A stretch of DNA of 64,000 nt, from positions 5,629,474-5,693,473 of the forward strand of contig NC_056002.1 in assembly GCF_018446385.1 (NCBI RefSeq), written 5' to 3'. This stretch comes from Zingiber officinale (taxonomy: Eukaryota > Streptophyta > Magnoliopsida > Zingiberales > Zingiberaceae). Made by a program: the position numbers and the translations under genes. The notes beneath the pieces were generated by a model. That model was not told where the DNA came from and did not search any database. It saw nothing but the letters and a program-made list of their open reading frames with translations. Positions 9,141 through 64,000 of the stretch are shown here, in pieces (positions within the stretch are counted from its first letter, which is position 1; each line of letters begins with the position of its first letter).

Positions 9141-9149
9141 GATATAAAG
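9141..9149 (-). promoter_or_regulatory. Candidate TATA box of the subgroup 1 MYB gene
   Basis: On the minus strand CTTTATATC lies about 90 bases upstream of the ATG. A pyrimidine-rich TTC-repeat leader (about 9080-9110) lies between it and the ATG. Spacing fits a short 5' leader, but nothing else supports the call. Confidence 0.4.
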
Positions 9150-36179: not shown

Positions 36180-37390
36180 CTTGTCCGAAAGTTACATTTA
36201 AGTAGATAGACAATCGGTAAGGTAGTCGGTAAGGTGGCAGGGATATTAATGAAAGAAAGACTTAGAATTGAAAGTTGCGGATCTATATACATCATAGACA
36301 GAGCTAATGGGAATATTAAAGTGAGAATCAAGAAAAAAGTCTTTAATACAAGTAGTCCGACGTTTAAGTTAGAATCGTAGCCAAACAAAATGGAGAAAAA
36401 GATGAACAGTAAAATAATAATATGAATGTGTATACCTGTGCACGTGTAGTTGGTTAACGGAAATGATCTCTTTTTTATACTTACTCTCATAACTTCCGTA
36501 ATAGTGAGACGTCTGAGAATATCAGATGTCAAAATATGTCGAGTAGTAGAGGATATAAAGTCACCTTCTCCTAGGAAGAGAAAAGTTCTGCTACGTGTAT
36601 ATATCAGAGCAAAGAAATATTACCTAGTGAGTAACTGTTATTCTCTGATAGATGGGTGTGATTCCCTGACAAGTCTATCTCCTAATGGGAGTCAGACCGA
36701 CTATAGGGCCGGTCAGATTTATATTGGGAGTCATGTTCATGAGAAGTGGAGAACTGAGTTTCGAATATCTGATCGGATCTAGGATCGACTGGATTTATAT
36801 TAGGAGCTAGTTAAGCCCATGAGAAGTGGGGAACTGAGCTCCAGAGATCCGATCGGCTTTAGGGTCGGCCGAATTTATGTTGAAAGTCATGGCCATTAGG
36901 AGTGGGGAGCTGAGCCCTGGGGATCAAACCGACTCTAGGGTCGGTCGAGTTTATATTAGGAGTCATGTCCATGAGAAATAAGGAATTGAGCCCCGAAGAT
37001 CCGACCGGCTCTAGGGCCGGTCGGGTTTATGTTGGGAGTCATGCCCATGTAAAGTGGGGAGTCAAGCCCTGCTGAAGTCTGATCGGCGTGAGTCGGTCGG
37101 GTTTATGTTAGGAGTTATACCCATGAGAAGTGGAGAGCTGAGTTTCAGATATTTGACCGGATCTAGAGCCGGTGAGATTTATGTTATGAGTCATGCCTAT
37201 AAAAAGTGGGAAGCTAAGTCCCGTAGATCTGACCGACACTCAAGTTGATTGGGTTTATGGTGGGAATCTTGCCCATGAGATGTGCGGAGCTGAGCCCCGT
37301 TGAAAATGGTCCATTCAGATACATACACTTGATTTTCATTACCATTTTATTTTGATTTTGACTGTAACATTATCTTGACTATCGACCTCA
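36180..37390 (-). mobile_element. Solo LTR of a gypsy-like family, minus orientation
   Basis: The reverse complement of this stretch follows the LTR at 38060-39530 landmark by landmark: GAGGTCGATAGTCAAGATAA at the start, then a block of ~75-80-bp tandem repeats (about 36690-37310), then ATCAGAGAATAACAGTTACT, TATACACGTAGCAGAA, GACGTCTCACTATTACGGAA, a TATA region (AGTATAAAAAAGAG, about 36470) and TTTACTGTTCATCTTTTTCT. No gag or pol sequence follows on its downstream side, so it is a solo or fragmentary LTR. The inner end is approximate. Confidence 0.75.
36690..37310 (-). repeat. ~75-80-bp tandem repeats with palindromic core in the LTR
   Basis: Seven to eight units on the pattern GACCGGCTCTAGGGCCGGTC, TTTATGTTGGGAGTCATG, CCCATGAGAAGTGGGGAGCT, GAGCCCCG. 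The core GACCGGCTCTAGGGCCGGTC is close to self-complementary. The same unit, inverted, fills 38150-39030. Confidence 0.85.
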
Positions 37391-38059: not shown

Positions 38060-39530
38060 TGTGAGATCGATGGTCAAGATAATTTGGCAATCAAAGTCAA
38101 TATGAAGTAACAATCAAAATCAAGATGTACGTATCTTAACGGACCACTTTCAATGGAGCTCAGCTTCCCACTTCTCATAGGTATGACTTCAAACATAAAC
38201 CAGGTCGGTCTCAGAGCCGGTTGGACCTTCGGGACTCAGCTCCCCACTTTTCATGGGCATGACTCTCAGCACTCAGCATAAACCCCACCGGTGCTAGAGT
38301 CGGTCAGACCTCCGAACTCGACCGGCCCTAGAACTGGCATGATCTCCGGAGTTCAGCTTCCCCTTTTTATAGGTATGACTCCCAGTATATACCCAATCGA
38401 CACCAGACTCGGTCAGGCCTCCGGGGCTCAACTTCCCACTTATATATCATAGCCATGACCCCAGCATAAACCCATCCGACGTCAGAGCCGGTCGGACCAC
38501 CATAGCTCAGATCCCCACTTCTCATAGACATGACCTCCAACATAAACCCGACCAGCTACAGAACCAATCGAACCTCCGGGGCTTAGCTCACCACTTCTCA
38601 TGGGCATGACTCCCAACATAAACTCGACCGGTCTCAGAGCCAATCGGACCTCTGGGGGTCAGCTTTTCACTTCTCATGTACATGACTCCCAGCATAAACC
38701 CAACTGATCCTAGAGTCGGTCGTACTTCAGGGATTCAACTCCCCACTTCTTATAGGCATAGCCCCCAACATAAACTCAACCGACCCTAAAGCCGATTGGA
38801 CCCCCGGGGCTCAACTCTCCACTTCTCATGGACATGACTCCCAAAATAAACTCGACGACCCCAGAACCGGTTGGACCTTTAGTGTTCAGGTTCTCACTTC
38901 TCATGAGCATGTCCCCAACATAAACCCGACCGGTCTACACCGATTAGACTTCAACGGCGCTTGGCTCCCTACCTCACATGAACATGGCTCCCAACCTAAA
39001 CTAGGTCGGCTCCAAGCCGATTGGACTCCCTCTAGGAGATAGCATTGTCAAAGAATCGTAACTACTTATCAGAAAATAATATCTATTCACCAGAGAATAT
39101 TCTACTACTTTGACATATACACGCAACAAAATATTCCTCTGCCTAGGGGGAAGGCTGTTGTGCATCCTTCACTGTCTGACATATTCTGATATCAGACATT
39201 CTCTGACGTCTCATTATTGTGGAAGTTATGAGAGGTAGTATAAAAAGGGGTCATCTCCATTAGCCAAGTACACGAACTCGCATGCACACATATCCATACT
39301 ACTATTTTACTGTTCATCTTCTTCTTTATTTTTCGTCGGGGCTATGGTTCTGACTTGAGTATCGAAATGTCTGTGTCAAGGACCCCCTCTCTGGTTCTCA
39401 CTCTAACGTTCTTATTTGCTCCCTTCATGATGTGTGTGCAGGTCTGTGACTCTTAACTCCAGGTCCTTCCTTCGTTAACATTTATGCTTTCTCATCAGTC
39501 ATTCATCTACTCATCTTTTAGAAGGGATTA
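38060..39530 (+). repeat. 5' LTR of the truncated gypsy element
   Basis: U3 begins TGTGAGATCGATGGTCAAGA and contains about eleven degenerate ~75-80-bp tandem units (38150-39030). These carry CCACTTCTCATGGGCATGAC, TCCCAACATAAAC and GACCGG...CCGGTC-type cores. A TATA box (AGTATAAAAAGG, about 39237-39248) and the R/U5 region follow. The right limit is uncertain by a few tens of bases. Confidence 0.75.
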
Positions 39531-42809: not shown

Positions 42810-42999
42810 TACTTTGTTGGTGCAATCTTAGGTCAAGGTTGACCTGACTCGAGTTGACCTGACTCGAGTTGTGTTTTGATGTTTGACGATGTTTGACGAG
42901 AAGAGAGTTGTATTCTTGATGTTTGACAAGAATAGGTGTTTGGGAGATTGTAGGTGCAACCTTAGGTCAAGGTTGACCTGGTTGACCGTGATTCGGGAA

Positions 43000-43480
43000 A
43001 AGTCCAAGCAGGGAGCTTGGCACGCGAAAAGTCCAAGTGTGGAGACTTGGCACGGGAAAAGTCCAAGTATGGAGACTTGGCACGGGAAAAGTCCAAGTAT
43101 GGAGACTTGGCACGGAGAAGTCCAAGCAGGGAGCTTGGCACGTGGGAAAGTCCTAATTGGGATGTTAGGCAGTGTGGAAAGTCCTGGTGAGTGAAGCCAG
43201 GCAGTGGGAAAGTCCTAACTGGGATGTTAGGCAGTGTGGAAAGTCCTGGTGAGTGAAGCCAGGCAGTGGGAAAGTCCTAACTGGGAAGTTAGGCAGTTGG
43301 AAAGTCCTGGTGAGTGAAGCCAGGCAGTGAGAAAGTCCTAACTGGGATGTTAGGCAGTGTGGAAATCCTGGTGAGTGAAGCCAGGTGGAAAGTCCTGATG
43401 AGTGAAGCCGGGCAAGGGAAAATCCAGATAGATCAAGGGTGATCGGACATCTGGTGTTGAGAAGTCCAAGTGAGTGAAGC
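43000..43480 (+). repeat. AAGTCC tandem repeats in LTR U3
   Basis: First, four ~30-bp units (GGGAAAAGTCCAAGTATGGA with GACTTGGCAC), then ~58-bp units (AAAGTCCTAACTGGGATGTT with GGAAAGTCCTGGTGAGTGAA). Each unit contains a short inverted pair, e.g. CCAAG...CTTGG, CCTAAC...GTTAGG and CCTGG...CCAGG. Confidence 0.85.
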
Positions 43481-43559
43481 TTGGCATATGGAGTCGGAGG
43501 GGGCTCGGTAGCTCGTTCTCCGAACTAGGTTAGAGAGGGCACTCTAAACTTAGGAGTTG

Positions 43560-43930
43560 GATCAGTCTACAGACCGATCCAGTGATACTCAGTGTTTCCT
43601 GATCGGTTTGGTGACCGATCAGATTCCACTCAGTAGTTTACTGTGGAGTTCCTGATCGGTCCACAGACCGATCAGGAAACGATCAGAAGTGAAGAAAGAA
43701 GCACCTGATCGGTCCAGGGACCGATCAGGTGTATGCCTGATCGGTCTCCACGACCGATCTGGGAGAGCTGGGATCGGTCCGGGGACCGATCAGATTCCGC
43801 ACAGAGAGTTGGGCAACTCTCTGTGAAGCCTTCTGATCGGTCTGGGGACCGATCAGCACAGGGCCTGATCGGTCCCCACGACCGATCAGGCAAGCCCCAG
43901 ACCGATCAGGCTGAAGCCTGATCGGTCCAG
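43560..43930. repeat. Array of GATCGGTC-n-GACCGATC palindromes
   Basis: Eight to nine quasi-palindromes in about 370 bp, each of the form TGATCGGTC, 3-6 bases, GACCGATCA, spaced by unrelated sequence and located just upstream of the TATA box. The matching array in the 3' LTR is at about 48530-48900. Confidence 0.9.
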
Positions 43931-44557
43931 GTTCTAGCCGTTGCTACGCAACGGCTAGTTTCTTCACTGTCTTCTTCACAGGTATAAAGGGGTCGAGGGC
44001 TGCTGCTGCTCGATGACTTCTTCTTCTTCCTTCCTGTTGTGAAGTGCTGTTGTGCTTGAGCTTTGTTGAGCTCCTCCTTGTCGAAGCTTCGCGTGAGCTT
44101 CATTCCACGACTGGATCAGCTGCTGCTGAGTTGCTTGTTGCATCTGTCCGTGAAGTTGCTACTTCATCCGGGACCCCAGTCGACGAGAAGGCAAGCTACT
44201 GTGTTTACATTCCTGTTGTATTTTGTTCTTGCTATTCTCTTGTACTCTTAGCTTGCTGTTGCAAGTGATTGTGGCGAGGTTTCTCCACCCACAAGGAGTT
44301 TGATTTAGCCGGTTTTCCGGGGACTCATCCACCGACGGATTGATAGGCTTCGTCCACCTTACGGACACGCCGAGGAGTAGGAGTTTCATCTCCGAACCTC
44401 GTTACATCCTTGCGTAGAGGTTTGATTTCTTCTCCTGTTTTCTTTCTGCATTTAGTTTCCGCTGCGCTAACCCTAGTTTGTAGAAAGAAACGCGAGCAAT
44501 TGGGGTCGGCTATTCACACCCCCCCCCTCTCTAGCCGTACGAAGAGATCCTAACAAG

Positions 44558-44569
44558 TGGTATCAGAGC
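44558..44569 (+). promoter_or_regulatory. Primer-binding site of element A
   Basis: TGGTATCAGAGC begins three bases after the 5' LTR and is complementary to the 3' end of initiator methionine tRNA, the primer normally used by plant copia elements. Confidence 0.9.
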
Positions 44570-44617
44570 CAAGTTTGCTCTTCATCGGATTAACACCCGG
44601 GGAGCACGAGCTAGAGG

Positions 44618-46090
44618 ATGGATCTACTCGGAGAAGATGTCACCATTCCACCATTCTACGAATGCGGTGACTTCGCGTATTGGAAGGTAAGGATGAAGTA
44701 CTTTCTTATGACTAACATAATGAATTGGTTTTGTGTACAAGAAGGTTTTATTCCTCCGGTGGATAAGGAAGGAAAACCACTTGAGAAGAAGGAGTGGACA
44801 AGAGAACAAATTCACAAATCCGAAATCAACGAAGAGGTAACGAGAATAATTGAATTTTCATTGCCTACTAACATCTTGTGTAAGATAGGTTACAACAATG
44901 CCAAGGAATTATGGGATAACTTGGCCAAGTACCATGAGGAGAGCTCCACTTCAAGCCATGAAGAGGAGCCTAGTGAACCAAGTAGCTCACATCATGGAGG
45001 GAGCGAATTGGGAGTTGAGGGCTACTCAACATCCAAGGAAGAAGAGGAGGAGAGTTCCTCTTGTTCAAGATCGGAGCAAGAAGAAGATTCTACCTCCGGA
45101 AGGGATGAAGAAGAAAGCTCATCTCCATCCACAAACCTAGGTAACTCAAGCTTTTTAATTCCTAGCAAATTACACATAATGTGCTTTGAGTGTAGGGAAT
45201 TTGGGCACTACAAGAGTAAGTGTCCAAAGAGGGTTAGGAAGTCTCCACCGGCGCCAAAGGTCAAGAAAGCCGGAGTCCCGATATGCAAAGGCAAAGAGCA
45301 CGTGGTGTGCTTTCAATGCAAGCGAAGGGGACATTATCGGAGTCAATGTCCGAGGGGGAGGCAACCTCACAAGGACAAGAAACCGAGCACATCAATAGGG
45401 GGGGCTAAGGCAAACCCTAAGGTAATCTCTAAGGTTCATTATTGCACTTCTAATAAAACTCATGCTAGTAGTTTTGTTGCAATTGTTAATAATGATAAGC
45501 ATGTTAACTGTAGGAACCAATACATGTGCTTAGGAGCTAAACATGTTAGCCTAGGTAAGGATAACACTAAAAATACCAACCCTAGGATTAACGCTTCTAA
45601 AGTTAAGGAAAACCTAGGTAGAAATCCCAAGAAGATTAGACACATGCCTAGGAATATCTCAAGAGAAAATGACAAATTAACACTTGAGGTATTAGAGAGG
45701 GAAAATCAAGTCTTGAGGTCAAGACTTGATAATTTAGAAAAGGCTCTTAAAAACATGGAGAAGTCATCTCTAGGGTTTAAGAGTCAAAAACCCAAGTCCA
45801 AGGACAAGAAAGGTTTGGGTCACAAACCTAAGTCCCAAGTGGTCAAACCCACTTATCATAGTGTTCCATTCGATTATGGAACAAAACCTAGGGCTAGGAA
45901 GACCACCACCAAGGTCACAAGGGGAGTCACCCCTAGAGTTGATCTTGATGAGTCCCAAATGACCAAGGCTTCAAAGCCTAAGAGGGTCATTAGGAGGGTT
46001 GCTAGGGAAGTCATCCCTAGTGAATATTTAGTGAACCCAATGAGCTCACATAGATATTGGGTTCCTAGGAGCATCTTCTCTATCCCATAG
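44618..46090 (+). CDS. gag: Gag polyprotein of element A (copia-type, two zinc knuckles)
   Basis: Uninterrupted 490-residue frame starting 49 bases after the primer-binding site. The N-terminus (PPFYECGDFAYWKVRMKYFL...NNAKELWDNLAKYHEE) is the copia gag domain that assembles the particle. A Ser/Glu-rich linker (about 106-175) is followed by two CCHC zinc knuckles that bind RNA: Cys189-Cys192-His197-Cys202 and Cys231-Cys234-His239-Cys244. A predicted coiled coil (about 350-385, LEVLERENQVLRSRLDNLE) and a very basic tail follow. The end, SHRYWVPRSIFSIP, resembles the point where gag meets protease in SIRE-like elements, but a stop and non-coding DNA follow. The frame is intact, unlike all pol remnants in this window. 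Confidence 0.9.
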   Translation: MDLLGEDVTIPPFYECGDFAYWKVRMKYFLMTNIMNWFCVQEGFIPPVDKEGKPLEKKEWTREQIHKSEINEEVTRIIEFSLPTNILCKIGYNNAKELWDNLAKYHEESSTSSHEEEPSEPSSSHHGGSELGVEGYSTSKEEEEESSSCSRSEQEEDSTSGRDEEESSSPSTNLGNSSFLIPSKLHIMCFECREFGHYKSKCPKRVRKSPPAPKVKKAGVPICKGKEHVVCFQCKRRGHYRSQCPRGRQPHKDKKPSTSIGGAKANPKVISKVHYCTSNKTHASSFVAIVNNDKHVNCRNQYMCLGAKHVSLGKDNTKNTNPRINASKVKENLGRNPKKIRHMPRNISRENDKLTLEVLERENQVLRSRLDNLEKALKNMEKSSLGFKSQKPKSKDKKGLGHKPKSQVVKPTYHSVPFDYGTKPRARKTTTKVTRGVTPRVDLDESQMTKASKPKRVIRRVAREVIPSEYLVNPMSSHRYWVPRSIFSIP

Positions 46091-47793
46091 ATGGGTTAGA
46101 GAGTGTCAACTCCAATTAGAAGGGTAGTTAACCCAACTTTGAGGAAATTGACACTCAAGGAGCATTTTCAAGGTTTTGATAACCTTTGAAAATGAAAAAG
46201 AATTATTATTTACTCCTTGAAGAGTAAATTGTGCCATATTTGAAAAATATCGATTTTAATCTTATTTGGCACAATTTAAGAAAACCTAGAGAAATACCAT
46301 AATTGGGATTTTGGTTTTCTCTTAGGGATATATGGGCAATCTAGGGTTAGATTTTAAGTTAGCTAAGGCTAAGGATACTTAGATAGGGAATTTAGGTATT
46401 TTATTTGTGCTAACTTGCCATGATTGGTTGCCATATGCCATGCCATGACATCATATTTATTTTATTATCATTTGAAATGTCATGATAATGCTTAGGCTAG
46501 TTTTTATGTCATGCTTATTTAAGGTTCAAACTTTATGCCATGACATCATGACATTGACACATGTTTTCATTTATGATACCATTTTATGTCATGTCATCAT
46601 CTCTTGCATTAGTAATCAATTGAATTGATTTAAGGATGAAAAACACATTTTGATATTGAGATCAAATTTGTGTTTAGAAAATGCATGAGACCTTAGTCTA
46701 AGATACCTAAACCCATATCTCACATCAAAATTGACATGGATGTGTTTGATACACTTTAGATGTGTGTGAGATATTAGGATCATGAGTTAGGATCAAGGTG
46801 CATAGTTCTTGTACCTAGATAAGCCTAATTCAAGAAATGGAGGATCATAGGGAAAACTTGTGTACAAGTCATGTACATATAGTCCTAAGATTATGATCCT
46901 AAATTAAAGGGTTTAAAATCATTTCAAAATTGATTTGAAAAACCTTGATGAAGCTTTCCTAGTGATTGCATTCATCATTGAACATTGTGATACAAAGTTG
47001 AGTTAAACTTGAACTATTTCAAAGTTTTTGAACTTTGTATCAAGATTGAAAAATGAAAGTTATTTTCATAGAAAACTATTTTTCCATGATAGTGTATGAT
47101 ATGAGGAATGTATCCTCAAAGTTTCATAATTTTTGGAATTTTCTTGAATTTATTAGGAGTTTCTGATTTTGGAAATCGGAAGTTCTGATTTCAGTGGCTA
47201 GATCGGTCCGGGGACCGATCCAGAAGATCTGATCGGTGCGGACCGATCCAGATGTGGATCGGTGCCCGATCGATGAGTTCGATGAGTGCGATCGGTGAAG
47301 GGTCGATGCGGGGACCGATCGGGCGTCAATTTCGATTTTTCAGTTGTCTGAAATTTCAGTTATGGAGTTGAGTTTCGGGTTTCTAAAGGTTTGAAACTCT
47401 CCAAGACATTGTTGGTGCAATGGTCAAGGGGGAGTTGACCTTTAGGGGGAGTTTTTACCTAATTATCAAGGGGAGTTGACTCTTAGGGGGAATTTTTACT
47501 CCTTAAGACTTTTGAGGATTAGTGACATGAGATTATCACTAAATTGTGTGTTGAGTTTAGTTTCAAGGGGGAAATTAAGGGTTTCAATGAAAGGTATGGG
47601 ACTTTCATTAGGAAGAAACTCTTGACCTTGATTCCCTCTTTTTGATGTGTGTCAAAAAGGGGGAGAGATGTCCCAAGGGGGGAGTGTAGGTTTTGGAAGA
47701 ATGTTCAAGGAAGAACATTGGAAAACCTAAGTTAGGTTATCGGGTTAACCTAACTTGATTTTGGATTTTGTCAAACATCAAAAAGGGGGAGAT
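46091..47793 (+). other. Non-coding 3' interior of element A
   Basis: About 1.7 kb with no coding region in the place where pol should lie. It holds AT-rich repeats of ATGCCATGACATCAT, a second small group of GATCGGTC/GACCGATC words (about 47195-47320) and G-runs (CAAGGGGGAG, AGGGGGAGTT, AAAAAGGGGGAG). It ends in the polypurine tract at about 47780-47793. Confidence 0.8.
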
Positions 47794-49524
47794 TGTTGGT
47801 GCAATCTTAGGTCAAGGTTGACCTGACTCGAGTTGACCTGACTCGAGTTGTGTTTTGATGTTTGACGATGTTTGACGAGAAGAGAGTTGTATTCTTGATG
47901 TTTGACAAGAATAGGTGTTTGGGAGATTGTAGGTGCAACCTTAGGTCAAGGTTGACCTGGTTGACCGTGATTCGGGAAAAGTCCAAGCAGGGAGCTTGGC
48001 ACGCGAAAAGTCCAAGTGTGGAGACTTGGCACGGGAAAAGTCCAAGTATGGAGACTTGGCACGGGAAAAGTCCAAGTATGGAGACTTGGCACGGAGAAGT
48101 CCAAGCAGGGAGCTTGGCACGTGGGAAAGTCCTAATTGGGATGTTAGGCAGTGTGGAAAGTACTGGTGAGTGAAGCCAGGCAGTGGGAAAGTCCTAACTG
48201 GGATGTTAGGCAGTGTGGAAAGTCCTGGTGAGTGAAGCCAGGCAGTGGGAAAGTCCTATGAGTGAAGTTAGGCAGTGGAAAATCTGGGAGTGAAGCAGTT
48301 GGAAAGTCCTGGTGAGTGATGTTAGGCAGTGTGAAATCCTGGTGAGTGAAGCCAGGTGGAAAGTCCTGGTGAGTGAAGCCGGGCAAGGGAAAATCCAGAT
48401 AGATCAAGGGTGATCGGACATCTGGTGTTGAGAAGTCCAAGTGAGTGAAGCTTGGCATATGGAGTCGGAGAGGGCTCGGTAGCTCGTTCTCCGAACTAGG
48501 TTAGAGAGGGCACTCTAAACCTAGGAGTTGGATCGGTCTGCAGACCGATCCAGTGATACTCAGTGTTTCCTGATCGGTCTGGTGACCGATCAGATTCCAC
48601 TCAGTAGTTTACTGTGGAGTTCCTGATCGGTCCACAGACCGATCAGGAAACGATCAGAAGTGAAGAAAGAAGCACCTGATCGGTCCAGGGACCGATCAGG
48701 TGTATGCCTGATCGGTCTCCACGACCGATCTGGGAGAGCTGGGATCGGTCCGGGGACCGATCAGATTCCGCACAGAGAGTTGGGCAACTCTCTGTGAAGC
48801 CTTCTGATCGGTCTGGGGACCGATCAGCACAGGGCCTGATCGGTCCCCACGACCGATCAGGCAAGCCCCAGACCGATCAGGCTGAAGCCTGATCGGTCCA
48901 GGTTCTAGCCGTTGCTACGCAACGGCTAGTTTCTTCACTGTCTTCTTCACAGGTATAAAGGGGTCGAGGGCTGCTGCTGCTCGAGGACTTCTTCTTCTTC
49001 CTTCCTGTTGTGAAGTGCTGTTGTGCTTGAGCTTTGTTGAGCTCCTCCTTGTCGAAGCTTCGCGTGAGCTTCATTCCACGACTGGATCAGCTGCTGCTGA
49101 GTTGCTTGTTGCATCTGTCCGTGAAGTTGCTACTTCATCCGGGACCCCAGTCGACGAGAAGGCAAGCTACTGTGTTTACATTCCTGTTGTATTTTGTTCT
49201 TGCTATTCTCTTGTACTCTTAGCTTGCTGTTGCAAGTGATTGTGGCGAGGTTTCTCCACCCACAAGGAGTTTGATTTAGCCGGTTTTCCGGGGACTCATC
49301 CACCGACGGATTGATAGGCTTCGTCCACCTTACGGACACGCCGAGGAGTAGGAGTTTCATCTCCGAACCTCGTTACATCCTTGCGTAGAGGTTTGATTTC
49401 TTCTCCTGTTTTCTTTCTGCATTTAGTTTCCGCTGCGCTAACCCTAGTTTGTAGAAAGAAACGCGAGCAATTGGGGTCGGCTATTCACACCCCTCCTCTC
49501 TAGCCGTACGAAGAGATCCTAACA
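47794..49524 (+). repeat. 3' LTR of element A
   Basis: 1731 bp, near-identical to the 5' LTR except in the tandem AAGTCC block (about 48150-48370), where units are shortened and rearranged. The close match elsewhere indicates a recent insertion. Confidence 0.9.
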
Positions 49525-49529
49525 TACTT

Positions 49530-50148
49530 AACATGCATACTAACAAGCACACACAACACAGCATAAAAAACAATAAATAGAAAAACTAATTTTCAACTAT
49601 TATGGCTTTTATCTATTGTTGTCCTCCGTGTGTCACCAACCCTAGCTGCTGCCATCTTTGGCCACCGCCACCGGGTCTAGTTGTCGCATCCATCTTGCTC
49701 CTTGTTCCACTACGCCTCTGGTCCTCAAAAGGTTCCGCGCCTTGCAAGATTCGATCCGCGACATAAATAGAATTTTACATTTTTCGATCCTATATTCCTC
49801 GAAGGAATGCACATGTAAACTAGATCGAACATAAAATAAAATTTACATCCATCGATCCTATATTCCATAAAAGGAATGTACATGTAACTAGATCAAAAAA
49901 TAAAATCCTAATAAAACTAAATACAGCTTCTGCTGTATTTTATAATACAATCATACATATACAATAAAATGCCCTTGACATGTCCAAGGGTCCAATCACA
50001 CACACAATATCTATAAGCCATAATAATTGGATCCTGCATCCACAAAGTTAGCACATCCTACTATTATCCTACCTAAATTATGTATGACATGTGCATAATT
50101 AAACTAATACCAAATACACAGAGGCAAAACCTTAGCTCTGATACCAAT
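49530..50148 (-). mobile_element. Element B, internal leader right of element A
   Basis: Reverse complement of the leader following the 5' LTR of element C (53471-54055). It includes the primer-binding site TGGTATCAGAGC (complement of 50135-50146) and the words GACATGTGCATAATTAAAC, TAGGATCGAAAAATG and GGTGACACACGGAGGAC. It was contiguous with 42205-42809 before element A inserted; joined there, the sequences share the single TACTT target. Confidence 0.8.
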
Positions 50149-50780
50149 TGTTGGTTGCTACTTGGAAAACCTAATGGTTCCTCTGTACAAAAATTTTGTA
50201 CAAGATCTGAACCTTTCCTAGCTACCATGTGTTCTTTTAAATTAAACTTGGATCGCCTGCGGAACTTAACACGTTTAATCCCAAGTTTAACTTATATGTT
50301 CTTTTAGGTTTAGATTTAGATCTCTTGCGGAACTTAACACGTTCGATCCAAATCACCTAGGTCACAAAGTTGATTAAATATTAATTTCCAAATTTGGCTT
50401 CCAGGACTGCATGGCGAGGCACATGACCTTCTTGGATATGGGAACAACCACCACCGCCTAGACAAAGCCTTTTAAGGAAAGTTAATATTTAATTTCCTTA
50501 AATAACTCTAGGTTAACCAAAAAGAACAATCGAAACACAAGTTCGAAAAGAAAACAAAATAACGCAACATCGAAAACTAATTCGAAACCTAAAATCACAT
50601 GTCTCTTGTATTTGGTATTTTTACAAAGAAACAAAACTAGTATGATGCGGAAAAAATTACTAGTTATACCTTCTTTTGTGAACTTTTAATGACCTCTTGA
50701 TCTTCTACCGTATTCCTCTTCTAACCTCGGACATTGTGTGGGCAATGGTCTTCCGAGATGAGAACCACCAAGGCACCTTC
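50149..50780 (-). mobile_element. Element B, LTR fragment left of element C
   Basis: Minus-strand LTR end (TGTTGGTTGCTACTTGG in + orientation). Its complement matches the last ~630 bp of element C's own 5' LTR with moderate divergence. It is interrupted at CCTTC by element C and resumes at 62478. Confidence 0.8.
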
Positions 50781-53470
50781 TGTTAGAGTGTATACTAAAA
50801 GCCTAGCTTTTGGTATAAACATTTATCTAGAAATAAGAATCACATTGGTCAAATGTCTACATTTATGATAAATGTAGTTGCTCAATTAATTTATATTGTA
50901 GATAACATGGTGTGTGGTGTCACATACAGAAGATCATGTTATCGGTTCCTTATAAATTATAAACAGTAGCTCACGACCAAGATGGAAAGGAACAAACCAT
51001 TGGAAGGTCGTAGTGTAATTAGGTATTAGTTTATCTTAACTATATAATTACACCAGTACACTTAGAGTGTATTGAGTAGGACCATTTGAGGTCGTTCCTT
51101 TTATACTGACTTTATAAAGGAACAAAGACCTCAGTTATTATGGAAGTGTGTACTCTTAATCCTAATATAATAACAATCACATATATTTGATATTTATTTC
51201 TTTAATTTATCAATGGGTGAGATTTAGTTCGATGAATCAATAAGCCCGATAAGTTGGGAAATGATATCACTTATAGTGTGTGTTGTTGATTATAGAAGGA
51301 AACTGTGTCCTAGTAATCTAGGTTGAGAATGTCCTCAAGAGGAGCTCATAAGGATTGTCATGTTAAACCCTGCAGGTGGACTTAGTCCGACATGACGATA
51401 AGGTTGAGTGGTACTACTCTTGGACTAAGATATTAATTAAATGAGTTGTCAATAACTCGCTTAATTAATGGACATTTGACATCTTAAACACAGGGAGACT
51501 AACACACTCATAATAAGAAGGAGCCCAAAATGTAATTTGGGATTGGTGCGGTAGTTCAATAATAGTTCTTTAGTGGAATGAATTATTATTGATGGAATTA
51601 AGTTGTGTGTTCGGGGCGAACACGGGAAGCTTAATTTCATCGGGAGACCAAAACCAATTCCTCCTCTCGGTCCCTATCGTAGCCTCTTGTATATAGAGAT
51701 TTATACCCACCACATACCCACCTTCTTACCCAACCAATAGGGGCCGGCCAAGCTAAGCTTGAAGCTCAAGCTTAAGGCCGGCCAAGCCTAAAGGTTGGCC
51801 TTAAGGTGGCCGGCCAATAGCTTGGAGCCCAAGCTTAGGTGGTCGGCCACATCATATTAAAAAAGATTTTTATTAAAATTATTTCTTATGTGGATATCAT
51901 GATTTTAAAAGAGAGTTTAAAAATTAAAAATTTCCTTTTATAACTTTCTACAAAAGATTAAGAGAAGAGATTAATCTCTTTCCTTATTTGTAGATTAAAA
52001 GGATGGTTTTAATTTTTTGTAAAAACTTTCCTTATTTGTAAATCATCTACATGTTTAAAAGAGAGTTTAAAATTTGAAATCTTTCCTTATTTGTTGATTA
52101 AAGGAGGATTTTAAATTTTAAGAAAACTTTCAATTTTAATCATGTTCATGATTTAAAAGAGAGTTTAAAATTAAATATTCTCTTTTATAAGTTTCTACAA
52201 AAGATTAAGAAAAGATTTGATATCTTTCCTTATTTGTAGATTAAAAGAGATTTTAAATTTTTTTTAGAGATAACTTTCTTTTTATCCACATGTTTAAAAG
52301 AAATATTTTAATTTATAAAATTTCCTTTTTATTAACCACCATGAAGGGAAAAATTATTTGAGAAATTTTTATAAATTTCCGAAAGCAAATTAGGAAGTTT
52401 TAATTCTTGTGTGAATTAAAATTTCCTTGATTTGTGGAATGGTGTGGCCGGCCATTGTATTTGTAAAAAGGAAATTATTTTTAATTAAATAAAATTTTCT
52501 TTTTCATGGAAAAATAATTAAGGAAGTTTTTAATTAAATTTCCTTATTTGCCAAGACCAAGGATTATAAAAGAGGGGGTAGAGAAGGCTTCATGGTGAAC
52601 AACCTCTATTATTTCTCTCCCTCTTTTCCTTGGTGTTGTGGCCGGCCAACCTCTCTTCCTCTCTTCCTCTTGGTGGTGGCCGAACCTTCTCTATTGGCTT
52701 GGAGCTCTTGTGGTGGCCGGATACTACTTGGAGAAGAAGAAGAAGAAGGAGATATAGCTTGTATCCCTTGGAGCTTGGTTGGTGTTTTGTTCTTCGTCCT
52801 TGGTGAAGCTTCTTTGTGTTGGCCGAACCTAGCTAGGAGGAGAAGAAGGTGCTTGGTGGTTTCTCATCTCGGAAGATCGTTGCCCACACAACGTCCGAGG
52901 TTAGAAGAGGAATACGGTAGAAGATCAAGAGGTCTTTCTAAAAGGTATAACTAGTAATTTTTCTTTCCGCATCATGCTAGTTATTTATGGAAATAATACC
53001 AAATACAAGAGGCTTACGATTCTAGTATTTTGAATATATTTTTCGAAGTTGTGTTCTTTTGTTTTATTTTTCCTTGTGATTTGATTATTCTTTTCAGTTA
53101 ACCTAAAGTTATTTTAGGAAATTAAATATTAGATTTCTATAAAAGGTTTTGTCTAGTCGGTCGTGGTTGCTCCCATATCCAAGGAGGTCATGTGCCTCGC
53201 CACGTCAGTACTGGGAACCAATTATAGAAATTAATATTTAATGGAATTAATAACTTAAGGTGATTTGGGTCGAACGTGTTAAGTTCCGCAGGAGATCCAA
53301 GTCAAAACCTAAAAGAACAAATAGATTAAGTTTTGGATCAAACGTGTTAAGTTCCGCAGGCGATCCAAAATTTAATTTAAAAGAACACATGGTAGCTAGG
53401 AAAAGGTTCAGACCTTTGTACAAAATTTTTGTACAGTGGAACCTCTAGGCTTTCCGAGTAGCAACCAACA
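50781..53470 (+). repeat. 5' LTR of element C
   Basis: 2690 bp, with GGCCGGCC-type words (about 51745-51850), an AT-rich middle built on AAAAGAGAGTTTAAAA repeats, a TATA box (GGATTATAAAAGAG, about 52562) and a transcribed leader. A 120-residue frame at 52592-52954 also occurs in the 3' LTR (61599-61961). It has no known domain and is probably a chance leader frame. Confidence 0.9.
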
Positions 53471-53472
53471 AT

Positions 53473-53484
53473 TGGTATCAGAGC
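53473..53484 (+). promoter_or_regulatory. Primer-binding site of element C
   Basis: TGGTATCAGAGC starts two bases after the 5' LTR and matches the initiator tRNA-Met 3' end. Confidence 0.9.
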
Positions 53485-54790
53485 TAGGGATTTGCCTCTG
53501 TGTATTTGGTATTAGTTTAATTATGCACATGTCATACATAATTTAGGCAGGATAATAGTAGGATGTGCTAACTTTGTGGATGCAGGATCCAACTATTATG
53601 GCTTATAGTTATTATGTGTGTGATTGGACCCTTGGATATGTCAAGGTCATTTTATTGTGTGTGCATGATTGTATTATAAAATACAACAGGAGCTGTATTT
53701 AGTTTTATTAGGATTTTATTTTTTGATCTAGATACATGTACATTCCTTCGAGGAATATAGGATCGAAAAATGTAAAAATTCTATATATGTCGCGAATCGA
53801 ATCTTGCAAGGCATGGAACTTTTTGAGGACCAGAGGCGCAGCGGAACAAGGAGCAAGATGGATGCGACAACTAGACCCGGTGGCAGTGGCCAAAGATGGC
53901 AGCAGCTAGGGTTGGTGACACACGGAGGACAACAATAGATAAAAGCCATAATAGTTGAAAATTAGATTTTATATTTATTGCTTTTATATTGTACTGTGTG
54001 TGCATGTTAGTATACATAGACTAGTATAGTTAAAAATTCCTCGTTTATAAATAACTAAGTGGGAGAGGGATTTTTAAATAAATCCCATGGTCTCCATTAC
54101 TGGTTTGTAAGTGATGCACACACGCTTTTGTTTCTTGGTGTGGCCCTCCATCATCATCATCATCTCCCAGACTTCCACTTTGTGGTGACGAATTTAAAGG
54201 CGTGTGATCTTCCCCAACGGAAGGGGCATAATCTTATTAATGGACTTAGTGTCAAGTAATGGTATACACTTAGGCATGTCTAATAGTATCCTCCCCATCG
54301 GAGTCACTGCTATTATTTGTGTGATCGAAGAAAACCAACTATTAATTTGTCAAATAAAAAGGTTGACAAGATAATAAAATTAAAAACCCCTCTTACAAAT
54401 GTTTGATTTTGTATACGTCCACACTAACGTGGCATACAAAATTCACGGTGTTTGAGGTAATTTTATTTGTCATAAAGATTTATTGACAAGATAATTAATG
54501 GGTAAAACCCTCCTCTTACAAATGTTGAAATTTTGTATACGTCCACACTAACGTGGCATGCAAAATTCACGATGTTTGAGGTGTTGGTGAATTTAAATAA
54601 TATTGTTTGAGGAATCAATGTTATTTTAAATTCAAAGAGTTTTGACCAAATATTTGATCAAAGACAGATCAACTATTAATTTTATTCGTCATAAAGTAAA
54701 GTTGACGAGATAATAAAATTAATGAATAAAATCTCCTCTTCGATTTTGTATATACAAAATTCATGGAGATTTTAAGGAGTTGATCTTGAC
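53485..54790 (+). other. Leader region of element C, no gag frame seen
   Basis: About 1.3 kb where gag would be expected. It contains two direct copies of a ~130-bp block (ACACTAACGTGGCATACAAAATTCACG, in the shorter words CACACTAACGTGGCAT and TTCACGGTGTTTGAGG, at about 54418 and 54541) and short frames only. No zinc knuckle was found. Confidence 0.6.
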
Positions 54791-54799
54791 CAAATATTT

Positions 54800-56402
54800 T
54801 TGTGATTCTTAGGATGTTTGTCAATCCCTAGTAGTCATACTATAGAAAAAGACTTAGTAGTCCCAATTGTAATGATTGAAAATAGGACTTGGACATTAAG
54901 GTAGACTGTCTTCTTAGAACTAAGAACAATTTAGGTGTATTTAATTCATTAGTTGAAACATGTCTAGTGGTGTTATCTACCAGAACCTGGAGTGTAGATA
55001 CAAGATGCCATTAATCATGTCTGCAATTCATTGCAGGGTTCTAGGAAACCCGACAACTAAATGAAAGGTAAATCACCGTCCACATGGGCACTACTGTAAA
55101 AGTGGTAGCTGTTGCAGTGGGAGATGTTTATCCTTTGATAAGAATAAAATATGGATTTTAAGTAATTGTCTTTACGTACCAAGTTTAGAAAGAACCTGAT
55201 TTCAGTTTCTAAACTATTATAGATATTGTGTCTATTTTGATAACAAAGTTGTTATCAAGAAAAATAGGGAAGTTATCTATTCTGGTATAATGGTTGACAA
55301 TTTATAAATAACTCCCACGATGCAACAAATGGAAATTAGTAACACATCTTCTAATTTTAAGAGAAAGCAACCTTCGAAAATGAACCAATTATATCTTTGG
55401 CACCTAAAGCTAGGTTATACTTAAGTAGGATTCATTGGTAGCTGATGAACTTTTGGGTTCATTGGTAGTGGAAATCTTTCCAACCTGCGAGTCTTACTTG
55501 GAAGGAAAATAACCAAGAAGCTTTTAAGTCCAAGGGGTATGGAGTCAAAGATATGTTGAAATCGGTTCATTCTGATTTATGTGATCCTATGACTATCCAG
55601 ACAAGAGGTAGTATTGAATATTTCATCTATTTTATAGACAACTATTCAAGATACAAATAAATTTACTTAATGTACCGCAAGACTAAGTACTTTGATTAGT
55701 TCAAAGAGTACAAGGCTGATGCGGAGAAATGTTAAAGTAAATGTCACTATGGTAAGATCGTAGTGGCAAGTACCTCTTGGGAGAATTTAGGAGTCACTTA
55801 TCAAAAGTAGGGATTCAATCCCAACTAACTGCACCTGGTACACCCCAACAGAATGGTGTAGTAGAAAGAAGGTAAAGGACTCTTATGAAATAATTAAGAT
55901 GATGAGTTATTCAGAAAATTACCAAAATTGTTTTAAGGATAAACTCTGATAACGAAAGTGAACATAGTACCTTCCAAGTTAGAACTCTCTACTCATATAG
56001 AATTGCTGAATAGGTGAAAACCTATTTTGAAGCATATTCGGATTCGGGTAATCCAGCACATATGTTAAAGAGAGACAATGATAAGTTGGATAGGAGTTCA
56101 CTTGTTTGTAAGTTATCCTAGATAAACAAAAGTAGGTTTATAGTCTTAAAAATCAGAAGGTCATTGTTAGCATCAATGACTGATTTTTTAGAAAAGGACT
56201 ATATAATGAACCACGTGCTCATAAGTAAATTTGTTCTTAAAGAAATAATAAAAGACATGTCTAATCTAGTACCAATTGTACAAGATGAGATACCACAAGG
56301 AAACTGCAACACGTATCACAAATGATACACAATTACAGAAAGTGCCTTGTCATAGTGGGAGGGTTGTTAGGCAACCTAAAAAGATTTATGTTTTGGGAGA
56401 GT
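54800..56402 (+). pseudogene. Degenerate copia pol, 5' part (GAG-preintegrase and integrase)
   Basis: Translations in changing frames show KNKIWILSNCLYVPSLER, IYSGIMVDNL, NQLYLWHLKLGY (where active copies have WHRRLGH), then SVHSDLCDPMTIQTRGSIEYF and FIDNYSRYK of the integrase core, TPQQNGVVERR and GRVVRQPKKIYVLGEFL. Stops and frameshifts are frequent. The reading continues across the solo LTR at 58236. Confidence 0.8.
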
Positions 56403-56407
56403 TTTTA

Positions 56408-58235
56408 TGTTGGTGCAACCTTAGGTCAAGGTTGACCTGGTTGACCCGACTCGAGGTGACTTGACTCGAGTTGTATTTTGATGTTTGACTTGGGAAGATT
56501 GTCGGTGCAACCTTAGGTCAAGGTTGACCTAGTTGAGTTGCATGTCGATGTTTGACGAGAAGAGAGTTGTATTCTTGATGTTTGAGAAGAATAGGTGTTT
56601 GGGAGATTGTAGGTGCAACCTTAGGTCAAGGTTGACCTGGTTGACCTGATTCGTGAAAAGTCCAAGTATGGAGACTTGGCACTGGAAAAGTCCAAGTACG
56701 GAGACTTGGCACGGGGAAAAGTCCAAGCAGGTAGCTTGGCACGCGGAAAGTCCAAGTATGGAGACTTGCACGGGAAAGTCCTAACGGGATGTTAGGCGTG
56801 TGGAAAGTCAGTGAAGTCAGGCAGTGAGAAAGTCCTAACTGGGATGTTAGGCGGTTGGAAAGTCAGTGAGTGAAGCGAGGAGAAAGTCCTAAGCGGGATG
56901 TTAGGCGGTGTGGAAAGTCTGGTGAGTGAAGCCGTGGGGAAAGTCCTAAGCGGGATGTTAGGCGGTTGGAAAGTCTGGTGAGTCAGGCGGTGAGAAAGTC
57001 CTAACCGAGATGTGAAGCGGGTGAAAACCCTAGTGAGTGAAGCTAGGTGAAAGTCCCGTGAGTGAAGCCGCAGGAAAATCCAGATGGATCAAGGATGATC
57101 GGACATCTGGTGTTGAGAAGGTCAAGTAGGTCAAGGGAGTGACCGGATACTTGACACGAAGAGAAAAGTCCAAGTGGGTCAAAGGATTGACCGGACACTG
57201 TGAGGAGTCTTAGCAGTCAAGGGGTGACCGGATTCTAAGCATGATGTACCAATAGGTCAAGGTTGACCGGATATTGGTTTGGAAGGTTTGAGACTTGGTT
57301 TGGGCAAAAACCAAGCTCTGGATCGATCCAGCGATACGTTTGTGTATCGATCGATTCGGTGACCGATCGATAACAAACAGAAGGCAAAGAGCTTACTGAT
57401 CGGTCTGGGACCGATCGGATGAAGTCTGATCGGTCTCCACGACCGATCGAGACGCAGCAGAGAGGTGGGATCGGTCGTGGACCGATCCATTGTGGCTCGA
57501 TCGGTCCACGCATCGATCAGAAACGAATAAAGTTGGGAAACCGTGAGCAATCTGATCGGTCTAGGGACCGATCAGCCTGATCGGTCCCGGACCGATCGGA
57601 AGGTCTGGACCGATCGGGTGGAGCTCGATCGGTCCACGATTCGACCGTTGAGTCACAACGGGTCGCTCCGTCTTCTCCGCGGCTTCTGTCTTCACTGTGC
57701 AGGTTCGCAGTTATAAAAGGAGATCAAGGCTTTGGTGCTTCTTCTTCTTCCTTCTTTCTTCTCTTCTGCTGAAGATTTGTCGAAAGCTTCGCGTGAGCTT
57801 CCCCGACTGGAACAGCTACTGCTGTTAGGGTTTTTGAAGCTGCTGCTTCATCCGGACTCCAGTCGACGAGAAAGCAAGTTTGGTAGAGTGCTTGTGTATT
57901 CTTATTGTATTTCTTGCTTATTCTTTGTACTTGTACTCCTGTTTGCTGTTGCAAACAAGTGTGGCGAGGTTTCTCCACCCAGAAGGAGTTTTTATTAGCC
58001 GGTTTTCCGGGGACTCATCCACCGACGGATTGATTGGGTTCGTCCACCTTACGGACACGCCGAGGAGTAGGAGCATCATCTCCGAACCTCGTACATCGCT
58101 GTGTTAAGGTTTGATATTCTTCCTTTCGTTTCTAGTTTATTTTTCCGCTGCACTAACGAATTGTAGGAAGAAACGAGCGATTTGGGGCGGCTATTCACAC
58201 CCCCCCTCTCTAGCCGAGTACGAAGGATCCTAACA
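56408..58235 (+). mobile_element. Solo LTR of an A-related family (TSD TTTTA)
   Basis: 1828 bp, TGTTGGTGCAACC to GGATCCTAACA, with TTTTA at 56403-56407 and 58236-58240. It has the same plan as element A's LTR: GGTCAAGGTTGACCT head, tandem AAAGTCC units (56655-57070), GATCGGTC/GACCGATC palindromes (57320-57640), TATA (TTATAAAAGG, 57711) and U5 words GTGGCGAGGTTTCTCCACCC and CCGGTTTTCCGGGGACTC. Only one LTR remains, so the rest was removed by LTR-LTR recombination. Confidence 0.9.
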
Positions 58236-59800: not shown

Positions 59801-62477
59801 TGTTATAGTGTATACTAAAAGCCTAGCTTTTGGTATAAACATTTATCTAGAAATAAGAATCACATTGGTCAAATGTCTACATTTATGATAAATGTAGTTG
59901 CTCAATTAATTTATATTGTAGATAACATGGTGTGTGGTGTCACATACAGAAGATCATGTTATCGGTTCCTTATAAATTATAAACAGTAGCTCACGACCAA
60001 GATGGAAAGGAACAAACCATTGGAAGGTCGTAGTGTAATTAGGTATTAGTTTATCTTAACTATATAATTACACTAGTACACTTAGAGTGTATTGAGTAGG
60101 ACCATTTGAGGTCGTTCCTTTTATACTGACTTTATAAAGGAACAAAGACCTCAGTTATTATGGAAGTGTGTGCTCTTAATCCTAATATAATAACAATCAC
60201 ATATATTTGATATTTATTTCTTTAATTTATCAATGGGTGAGATTTAGTTCGATGAATCAATAAGCCCGATAAGTTGGGAAATGATATCACTTATAGTGTG
60301 TGTTGTTGATTATAGAAGGAAACTGTGTCCTAGTAATCTAGGTTGAGAATGTCCTCAAGAGGAGCTCATAAGGATTGTCATGTTAAACCCTGCAGGTGGA
60401 CTTAGTCCGACATGACGATAAGGTTGAGTGGTACTACTCTTGGACTAAGATATTAATTAAATGAGTTGTCGATAACTCGCTTAATTAATGGACATTTGAC
60501 ATCTTAAACACAGGAGACTAACACACTCATAATAAGAAGGAGCCCAAATGTAATTTTGGATTGGTGCGATAGTTCAATAATAGTTCTTTAGTGGAATGAA
60601 TTATTATTGATGGAATTAAGTTGTGTGTTCGGAACACGGGAAGCTTAATTTCATCGGAGACCAAAACCAATTCCTCCTCTCGGTCCCTATCGTAGCCTCT
60701 TGTATATAGAGATTTATACCCACCACATGCCCACCTTCTTACCCAACCAATAGGGGCCGGCCAAGCTAAGCTTGAAACTCAAGCTTAGGGCCGGCCAAGC
60801 CTAAAGGTTGGCCTTATGGTGGCCGGCCAATAGCTTGGAGCCCAAGCTTAGGTGGCCGGCCACATCATATTTAAAAGGATTTTTTATTAAAATTATTTCT
60901 TATGTGGATATCATGATTTTAAAAGAGAGTTTAAAATTAAAAATTTCCTTTTATAACTTTCTACAAAGATTAAGAGAAGAGATTAATCTCTTTCCTTATT
61001 TGTAGATTAAAAGGATGGTTTTAATTTTTGTAAAACTTTCCTTATTTGTAAATCATCTACATGTTTAAAAGAGAGTTTAAAATTTGAAATCTTTCCTTAT
61101 TTGTTGATTAAAGGAGGATTTTAAATTTTAAGAAAACTTTCAATTTTAATCATGTTCATGATTTAAAAGAGAGTTTAAAATTAAATATTCTCTTTTATAA
61201 GTTTCTACAAAAGATTAAGAAAAGATTTGATATCTTTCCTTATTTGTAGATTAAAAGAGATTTTAATTTTTTAGAGATAACTTTCTTTTTATCCACATGT
61301 TTAAAAGAAATATTTTAATTTATAAAATTTCCTTTTTATTAACCACCATGAAGGGAAAAATTATTTGAGAAATTTTTATAAATTTCCGAAAGCAAATTAG
61401 GAAGTTTTAATTCTTGTGTGAATTAAAATTTCCTTGATTTGTGGAATGGTGTGGCCGGCCATTGTATTTGTAAAAAGGAAATTATTTTTAATTAAATAAA
61501 ATTTTCTTTTTCATGGAAAAATAATTAAGGAAGTTTTTAATTAAATTTCCTTATTTGCCAAGACCAAGGATTATAAAAGAGGGGGTAGAGAAGGCTTCAT
61601 GGTGAACAACCTCTATTATTTCTCTCCCTCTTTTCCTTGGTGTTGTGGCCGGCCAACCTCTCTTCCTCTCTTCCTCTTGGTGGTGGCCGAACCTTCTCTA
61701 TTGGCTTGGAGCTCTTGTGGTGGCCGGATACTACTTGGAGAAGAAGAAGAAGAAGGAGATATAGCTTGTATCCCTTGGAGCTTGGTTGGTGTTTTGTTCT
61801 TCGTCCTTGGTGAAGCTTCTTTGTGTTGGCCGAACCTAGCTAGGAGGAGAAGAAGGTGCTTGGTGGTTTCTCATCTCGGAAGATCGTTGCCCACACAACG
61901 TCCGAGGTTAGAAGAGGAATACGGTAGAAGATCAAGAGGTCTTTCTAAAAGGTATAACTAGTAATTTTTCTTTCCGCATCATGCTAGTTATTTATGGAAA
62001 TAATACCAAATACAAGAGGCTTACGATTCTAGTATTTCGAATATGTTTTTCGAAGTTGTGTTCTTTTGTTTTATTTTTCCTTGTGATTTGATTGTTCTTT
62101 TCAGTTAACCTAAAGTTATTTTAGGAAATTAAATATTAGATTTCTATAAAAGGTTTTGTCTAGTCGGTGGTGGTTGCTCCCATATCCAAGAAGGTCATGT
62201 GTCTCGCCACGTCAGTACTGGGAACCAATTATAGAAATTAATATTTAATGGAATTAATAACTTAAGGTGATTTGGGTCGAACGTGTTAAGTTCCGCAGGA
62301 GATCCAAGTCAAAACCTAAAAGAATAAATAGATTAAGTTTTGGATCAAACGTGTTAAGTTCCGCAGGCGATCCAAAATTTAATTTAAAAGAACACATAGT
62401 AGCTAGGAAAAGGTTCAGACCTTTGTACAAAATTTTTGTACAGTGGAACCTCTAGGCTTTCCGAGTAGCAACCAACA
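59801..62477 (+). repeat. 3' LTR of element C
   Basis: 2677 bp, very close to the 5' LTR. Differences are single bases and short indels, for example the loss of a few bases in GTTCGGGGCGAACACGGG (here GTTCGGAACACGGG). Confidence 0.9.
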
Positions 62478-63058: not shown

Positions 63059-64000
63059 TGTTGGAGGATCGGTGGCCGCTAGAGGGGGGGTGAATAGCGT
63101 CTCACCCAAAACTTTACTTCCTATAATGTTAGTGCACAGCGGAATACAAAAATAAACTAACAAATACGAAAGTTAACCTAAAAACAATAAGGAAGAAGAC
63201 AACAAACCAAACACAAACCCTAACACAAGGCGTTTACGTGGTTCGGAGATAACTTGCTCCTACTCCACGGAGTGTCCGTAAGGTGGACGATCCCTCAATC
63301 CGTCGGTGGATTAGTCCCCGACAAACTCCGGCTAGCTCAACCTCCTTGTGGGTGGAGAAACCTCACCACAACTCCAACCAAGATCTCTTGGACAAAAGAG
63401 AAACCTTGAGCACTTAGTGACTACTAATTAGGCTTTAACCAAGTCTAATTTCGTCACCTTGGCCGGCCATACCAAGCTCCTTCTTATAAAGCTTGGAACA
63501 AATCAGAACCTGATTTGCCTGTTACCAGTCGACTGGTCCTTGCACCAGTCGACTGGTGCCAGCCCAACGGCTCTCTCAACGGCTCTGCTACAGTGCATCA
63601 GTCGACTGATCCATCACCAGTCGACTGCTACATTGCGCTACAGTACGCTACAGTAACTGCTACGGTGCCGCTACAGTGAAACCCTAAAACTAGGATTTTA
63701 CTCCGAGTACAATCTCTCATGCACTTGTACCCTCACCCTTATGACTCATTTGACGCTTTCTTTGCAGCCTTGACCTTTTGCCTTCAAGCCTACTTCCTTT
63801 GGCTCTCGTCCCTCGGATGCATCCAAGCCCGCGGCTTGTCCCCAATGCTATCCTTCGCGTATGCCTCGAAGTCGCTTCCCTCGGCCATTGTCCTTGTTGC
63901 CTTGTCCACGGTCCCTCGGATGCTCCATCCTTCACCGGACCCGAAGCCGTCAACTTGAGTCACATGTGTCACCTGCAGTCCTGCACAACTCAAGTACACA
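63059..64000 (-). mobile_element. Element D: partial LTR at the window edge
   Basis: Begins TGTTGGAGGATCGGTGGCC and, read on the minus strand, ends like A-type LTRs: TATTCACCCCCCC, with the CGTCCACCTTACGGACACTCC and GTGGTGAGGTTTCTCCACCC landmarks in the same order. Its U3 has a different palindrome, ACCAGTCGACTGGT (63525-63630), in place of GATCGGTC. It is inserted in element B's LTR. The remainder lies outside the window. A small TACAGT/CTACAGT cluster is at 63585-63680. Confidence 0.75.

Follow-up and report, generated by a model that had tools for sequence, protein, structure and literature searches.

A window of 64,000 nucleotides from the genome of Zingiber officinale (C17:5629474-5693473 in an assembly of 3,090,333,446 bases) contains long terminal repeat (LTR) retrotransposon sequences whose U3 regions carry arrays of short palindromes, namely element A, a solo LTR and a partial LTR, D, cut by the window end. 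These arrays are almost certainly RM boxes of the kind published for Sireviruses (Ty1/copia). The mechanism we consider likeliest, with confidence somewhat above even, is that of tandem dyad-symmetric promoter boxes acting on double-stranded DNA, for which we infer protein binding and promoter activity. Its basis computed here comprises identity by non-coding hallmarks, position, copy number, a mostly 4-base spacing and covariation between arms. Explanations based on pairing or on mutation are live rivals that may act jointly.

The window holds 98 matches to the motif GATCGGTC (at most one mismatch), where 25.8 are expected and 100 shuffles give 37 at most. In A and the solo LTR this motif forms dense GATCGGTC-n4-GACCGATC arrays, the last unit of which lies 56-78 bp upstream of the TATA box (Table 1). 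With no more than one mismatch per arm, eight inverted units occur in each LTR of A, two in the A linker and five in the solo LTR, which holds additional, more degenerate units; an earlier interpretation of this DNA made without database searches (the sequence-only reading) had placed palindrome arrays just upstream of TATA in A and the solo LTR, and this placement holds. Inverted repeats with arms of at least 7 bases reach 14-15 per kb in the array windows versus 0.5-0.9 after shuffling (10 shuffles each), and the number of bases in short stems exceeds that of shuffles 7.2-7.4-fold in windows 43001, 47001 and 48001, 5.3-5.4-fold in two solo windows and 4.7-fold in the D window. A milder excess is widespread: the 53 windows that lie in neither A nor the solo LTR have a median of 1.58-fold, and 18 of them exceed all 60 shuffles. 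The minimum free energy of folding (40 shuffles) gives z -20.4 for the array of the A 3' LTR (48525-48935), -11.2 for that of the solo LTR (57300-57650), -5.7 for D and values between -2.4 and -4.6 for nine further segments of A and the solo LTR. In the unrelated 2.7-kb LTR of element E, two segments likewise fold below shuffles (z -6.8 and -8.4).

Palindromic CGG-CCG boxes in Sireviruses, both ahead of TATA and in the linker that precedes env, are described in the available portion of Bousios et al. (2010; PMC2829016), and the RMs it gives for Barbara (TCGGTCYCACCGA) and Vitis (CGGTCGACCG) resemble the box found here. The claim of the sequence-only reading that the arrays approach an undescribed system is therefore not sustained. 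Six of the seven non-coding Sirevirus hallmarks tested are present in element A: (i) clustered AGGGGGAG polypurine tracts (PPTs) upstream of the 3' LTR, with a fifth copy in gag at 45353; (ii) a terminal PPT followed by AT/TG (AGGGGGAG-AT-TGTTGG); (iii) an inverted repeat at the junction of PPT and 3' LTR (14 bp, GTCAAACATCAAAA touching the PPT and its complement 59 bases into the LTR); (iv) the CA/A(T or G)TGG TATCAGAGC junction (CTAACAAGTGGTATCAGAGC in A); (v) palindromic RMs with a CGG-CCG core upstream of TATA; and (vi) a C-rich integrase signal (a C9 run at 44519 in the A 5' LTR and a C7 run at 58200 in the solo LTR, 27-29 bp short of the respective LTR end). The remaining hallmark is the CpG island. 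No run of five C occurs in the A 3' LTR. The excerpted text of PMC2829016 gives a mean distance of 21 bp for the C-rich signal and averages of 28 bp for both the length of the junction inverted repeat and its depth into the LTR, that of A being shorter and deeper.

The likeness to published Sirevirus RMs, as far as the accessible part of PMC2829016 goes, thus extends to the many CGG-CCG copies before TATA and in the linker together with the PPT, junction and C-rich features listed. The differences are the box itself (GATCGGTC-n4-GACCGATC), a covarying upstream array of ~31-bp units, the lack of pol in A and the occurrence of boxes in (TA)n-flanked inverted-repeat elements. Maize Ji, Opie and Giepum LTRs (Bousios 2016, via the sections available of PMC5311732 and PMC10760457) likewise have a palindrome-rich, variable cis-region and a palindrome that also occurs in another class of transposable elements (Helitrons); their palindrome, CACCGGACNNNGTCCGGTG, differs from the present box, and small RNAs have been shown in maize. 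Within the parts seen of the open-licence literature searched, neither this box and its scale nor the covarying second array and the (TA)n carriers were found, and among the matches listed for an 8-mer of the box none was about the motif by its title.

The boxes are abundant in the genome. Perfect TGATCGGTC-n4-GACCGATCA boxes number 72,726 (reversed control, 0), so the arrays are not limited to a few copies, and 87,944 are counted when spacings of 0-12 are allowed. A 491-base array query yielded 6,375 candidate genome sites, 40 of which were scored, and scans of viral contigs with two patterns gave 0 matches. Within the first 3 Mb of C1, the surroundings of palindromes were retrieved at 22 loci (L055 and L056 included), and in 13 of these the array lies 318-748 bp upstream of a U5 core. 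At locus L007 the array belongs to the linker of a longer, pol-bearing element on C1 with two U5 cores (223375 and 233257), TATA at 223090, a primer binding site at 223653, boxes in the linker (229217-229590) and in the 3' LTR (232200-232624), four PPTs and AGGGGGAGATTG at 231731. Its open reading frame (ORF) pieces match Retrotran_gag_2, rve (integrase) and RVT_2 (E 5e-79), identifying a copia-type pol; pol is spread across ORFs in different frames and this copy may therefore be inactive. The ORF that follows the array has Transposase_32 as its sole match (E 0.0026, under the family cut-off), and judged by position only it would be an env-like gene.

Element A spans 42815-49524 and is flanked by the 5-bp target site duplication (TSD) TACTT (42810-42814 and 49525-49529). 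Its gag is 39% identical over 103 aa to the gag of a pol-bearing relative. No pol-sized ORF follows gag, the plus-strand ORFs of at least 80 aa in 44615-47793 being gag and an 83-aa frame inside it; lacking a copia-type pol among these ORFs, A is named a non-autonomous relative and not a full Sirevirus, and is probably a gag-only, non-autonomous member. Outside the boxes the A linker (46091-47793) is rich in short inverted repeats (431 stem bases versus 148 in shuffles), and the gag ORF is stem-rich too (228 versus 78).

Alignment places A and the solo LTR in a single family, not in the two that had been claimed. Their identity (gaps left out) is 97% over the start of the LTR, falls to 78% across the upstream array and to 63% across the palindrome array, and stands at 82% in R-U5. 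The palindrome array, the least alike, is thus a fast-changing part, in agreement with the earlier remark that flanks differ as the palindromes persist. The U5 core of D is common to A and the solo LTR (83% identity). Four AGTCGACT units stand at the equivalent place in D, as had been proposed: CCAGTCGACTGG twice, TCAGTCGACTGA, in which both arms are changed relative to CCAGTCGACTGG with pairing kept, and GCAGTCGACTGG, in which only one arm is changed.

A second hairpin array (43004-43484 and 47983-48455) is an addition to what had been observed earlier. AAAGTCC-like anchors cut the upstream U3 into 16 (A 5' LTR), 15 (A 3' LTR) and 19 (solo LTR) segments, mostly of 24-32 bp, and the AAAGTCC-arm-loop-arm'-GGCA stem is present in most, not all, of them. 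A single loop, TGAGTGAAG, is seen with the arms CCTGG/CCAGG, CCTAG/CTAGG and CCAAG/CTTGG. When anchors blind to pairing are used, 47 of 63 variable cells are paired versus 28.6 in shuffles (21 distinct units); another anchoring rule gives 45 of 57 versus 26.2 (19 units), and across 45 sources 255 of 408 are paired versus 145.8 (136 of 141 distinct units, five being dropped as too short). No shuffle reaches these values. Collapsed to distinct arm types the signal is modest, 621 of 20000 shuffles reaching it under one anchoring rule and 283 of 20000 under the other.

In the mechanism proposed, the many near-identical dyad-symmetric boxes CTGATCGGTC-n4-GACCGATCAG directly upstream of the LTR TATA, and again in the linker, would constitute a multi-copy cis-regulatory module acting on double-stranded DNA. 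Each box would be bound by a putative dimeric host factor, and the boxes would drive the LTR promoter and, in relatives having a gene after the linker boxes, that downstream gene as well. Compensatory change between arms, a check suggested by the sequence-only reading, was examined in units with at most two mismatches per arm lying within 200 bp of a strict unit (loci L005-L024 and the window; 230 units, 174 non-redundant). The core is perfect in 102 of these 174 units, which were admitted only at that mismatch limit. Of the core cells, 1261 are intact and 113 are altered on a single side; both sides are altered in 15 with pairing kept and in 3 without pairing. The 15 pairing-kept changes compare with 3.9 in shuffles and with 5.45 when shuffling is confined to each source (168 units from the 19 loci or window stretches having at least three units), and 0 of 5000 shuffles reach them in either case, so that neither this check nor the copy number refutes the common U3 design proposed by that reading.

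Several observations weigh against this account. Element A has no reverse transcriptase, and its CpG observed/expected ratio of 0.56-0.59 in array windows (1 kb; 1.01 in the solo LTR) seems weaker than in described CpG islands. Helical phasing is strong in the A 3' LTR (1 of 3000 random arrays as good) and absent in the solo LTR (1299 of 3000). Loops are strand-asymmetric: among 181 oriented LTR units the loop has 4 bases in 128, its first base is a pyrimidine in 123 and its last a purine in 99, and pyrimidine-purine at loop positions 1-2 occurs in 109 of the 128 tetraloops versus 59 for the mirror form (24 versus 10 of 31 in linker loops). Such asymmetry is not predicted by a symmetric DNA site; shared descent could be its cause. 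The bases flanking the core also covary (T-A 84, G-C 32 and C-G 11 of 174), which one fixed protein site does not need and which points to pairing itself. Within sources, flanking positions 1-3 are paired in 299 of 504 cases versus 206 in shuffles (0 of 5000 reach), the excess fading by position 4; the 15 units of the window are borderline (33 of 75 versus 26.9; 1381 of 20000 reach) and the eight of the A 3' LTR give 25 of 40 versus 17.9 (83 of 20000 reach).

Helical phasing as a general rule was dropped. The 163 distinct box spacings have modes near 32, 41, 53 and 63, which fit whole helical turns; their peak is broad, the modes reflect inherited modules and phasing is confined to the A 3' LTR, so that it stays a lead.

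The flank covariation is what would be expected if U3 transcripts from the 3' LTR formed hairpin arrays that either benefit the element or supply the small interfering RNA by which the host silences it, with palindromicity and not sequence under selection. We regard this as unlikely, if the best placed of the alternatives to promoter boxes. It agrees with the fold energies of the A and solo arrays, with the palindromes that remain in the spacers once the core is masked (67 stem bases versus 8.4 in A, 40 versus 6.3 in the solo LTR), with the covarying ~31-bp units and with the concentration of maize small RNAs on Sirevirus palindromes reported in the available text of PMC5311732 and PMC10760457. 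The core letters, however, are fixed beyond the needs of pairing alone, and the stem excess extends beyond U3 to gag and the masked linker, with the LTRs of element E also folding below shuffles. Among the one-sided transitions of oriented copies, those that produce G.U on the strand of the element do not clearly outnumber those that produce A.C (36 versus 29), so that fixed copies show no sign of pairing tolerance at the RNA level.

Compensatory changes may also arise without selection for pairing, as a by-product of quasi-palindrome correction, through template switching or inverted duplication at the time of reverse transcription, of replication or of repair. Such an origin is slightly less probable again. 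At locus L010 (1393-2350) a 260-bp array forms one large palindrome at 94%, which shows inverted duplication; exact direct repeats, 61 bp or longer, border this insert, which resembles U3 sequence inserted by repair or recombination. The recurrence of array modules at the spacings given above and the fading of the flank excess by position 4 are in line with it, as are young copies of the A array (28 aligned, 25 distinct rows), whose changes are mostly one-sided: 97.4% of cells are paired versus 97.2% in shuffles, and the effect is weak, four pairs having changed on both sides versus 1.3 (2 of 500 shuffles reach). Covariation being strong between units and small among young copies, pairing is kept over the long term and between units, and young copies decay mostly one-sidedly. 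A mutational by-product leaves unexplained why the core of 8 bases is constant, why loops mostly have 4 bases and why the boxes adjoin TATA, and the stem excess of 5-7-fold in U3 windows contrasts with the median of 1.58-fold elsewhere.

Short (TA)n-flanked elements on C1 (L005, L009, L011, L012, L024 and L056) were observed to bear GATCGGTC palindromes of the Sirevirus-LTR type. In L005, L009, L011, L024 and L056 the boxes adjoin (TA)n and a GAAAT...CTG(CGG)-like end, and L012 matches L011 at 89%. Terminal inverted repeats (TIRs) between the (TA)n flanks were found in three of seven elements tried: those of two L056 elements match in 40 of 43 columns and over 29 columns with three mismatches and a gap, and that of L005 covers 65 columns with a 4-base gap. 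The TIR of L009 is weak, and the ends selected in L024, L011 and L012 showed none. Thirty exact left ends of such elements were counted, of which four were read, all in loci chosen for palindromes. Micron elements are short, TA-microsatellite-targeting elements with TIRs and (TA)n flanks. The same traits link the present elements to MuTAnT and microsatellite-associated miniature inverted-repeat transposable elements, as portrayed in the available parts of PMC5907723, PMC8449440 and PMC4486113; unlike all of these as far as described there, the present ones carry Sirevirus-type palindromes inside. A parallel is offered by maize, where the Sirevirus palindrome is the commonest motif in structured regions of Helitrons, according to the excerpt of PMC10760457.

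The 9-base spacer GGAACCTCC/GGAGGTTCC is common to L005, L009, L056, the linker array of L007 and the A-type LTR copy L036, which suggests transfer over convergence. The 24-base palindromic box could then be a cassette passed between unrelated transposable elements (Sirevirus promoters, linkers and (TA)n elements with the spacer GGAACCTCC), the fold itself being selected, with a single hairpin-reading machinery of the host exploited by, or catching, every class; this extended proposal is doubtful. Two roles have been proposed for Sirevirus palindromes, that of promoter switches and that of a site by which the host recognizes the element. This genome holds over 70,000 near-identical boxes, an alternative array that covaries within the same LTR and boxes in DNA-type elements, and so supplies many natural variants that separate sequence, pairing and position and could tell these two ideas apart.

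That the palindrome design is common to all LTR retrotransposons of the window, gypsy included, is highly improbable: a single exact GACCGG...CCGGTC, located at 37003 within a 76-bp tandem array, and a fold z of -5.3 for the minus strand of 36650-37300 speak for it, but the arms do not covary (13 of 16 units, three of other length being left out; 60 of 104 cells paired versus 60.4 shuffled), inverted repeats are 0.98, 0.75 and 0.56 times those of shuffles in windows 36001, 37001 and 38001, and the sister array (38150-39050) folds with z -0.3. This extension to the candidate arrays of a putative gypsy element, which failed the covariation and inverted-repeat tests with one of two fold tests positive, was rejected. 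A common U3 design as first claimed accordingly stands for A, the solo LTR and D and falls for the gypsy-like arrays, and since boxes also occur in the A linker it is not restricted to U3.

Table 1. Features of element A, the solo LTR and LTR D, in window coordinates.
Feature	Position	Strand	Remarks
5' LTR of element A	42815-44555	+	98.2% identity with 3' LTR; TG...CA ends
Upstream ~31-bp hairpin array, U3 of A 5' LTR	43004-43484	+	AAAGTCC-arm-loop-arm'-GGCA; arm types CCAAG, CCTAA, CCTGG, CCAGA
Palindrome (RM) array, A 5' LTR	43560-43927	+	GATCGGTC-n4/5-GACCGATC; 8 units
TATA box (TATAAA), A 5' LTR	43983-43988	+	
Primer binding site, element A	44558-44569	+	TGGTATCAGAGC within CA/AGTGG TATCAGAGC
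gag ORF, element A	44618-46090	+	About 490 aa; zinc knuckles; Pfam: zf-CCHC only
Palindromes in element A linker	47201-47324	+	GATCGGTC; upstream of multiple PPTs
Four PPTs, element A	47427-47791	+	AGGGGGAG at 47427, 47444, 47658, 47784; last one followed by AT/TG of LTR
3' LTR of element A	47794-49524	+	
Upstream ~31-bp hairpin array, A 3' LTR	47983-48455	+	
Palindrome (RM) array, A 3' LTR	48531-48898	+	8 inverted units plus final outward-facing pair
TATA box, A 3' LTR	48954-48959	+	
Solo LTR, family of element A	56408-58235	+	TSD TTTTA on both sides; blast match to A
Palindrome (RM) array, solo LTR	57321-57634	+	TATA at 57712
Part of LTR D	63060-64000	-	U5 core near 63364; TATA 63488; four AGTCGACT palindromes at 63525-63628

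Other features of the window include an inverted pair of tandem arrays (36640-37300 and 38140-39060) made of 76-bp units, each with a diverged CGG..CCG motif, which are possibly LTR-derived. Two direct 2.7-kb repeats (50781-53470 and 59801-62477; 98.7% identical), with a TGGTATCAGAGC site at 53473, probably belong to another LTR element, which encloses the solo LTR. A cluster of diverged AT-rich repeat copies, direct and inverted, occupies 1668-3975, with TCAGTCGACTGA at 1615, and host-like ORFs at 32248-33318, 34739-35137 and 8188-9162 comprise one Dof zinc-finger protein and two Myb-domain ORFs.

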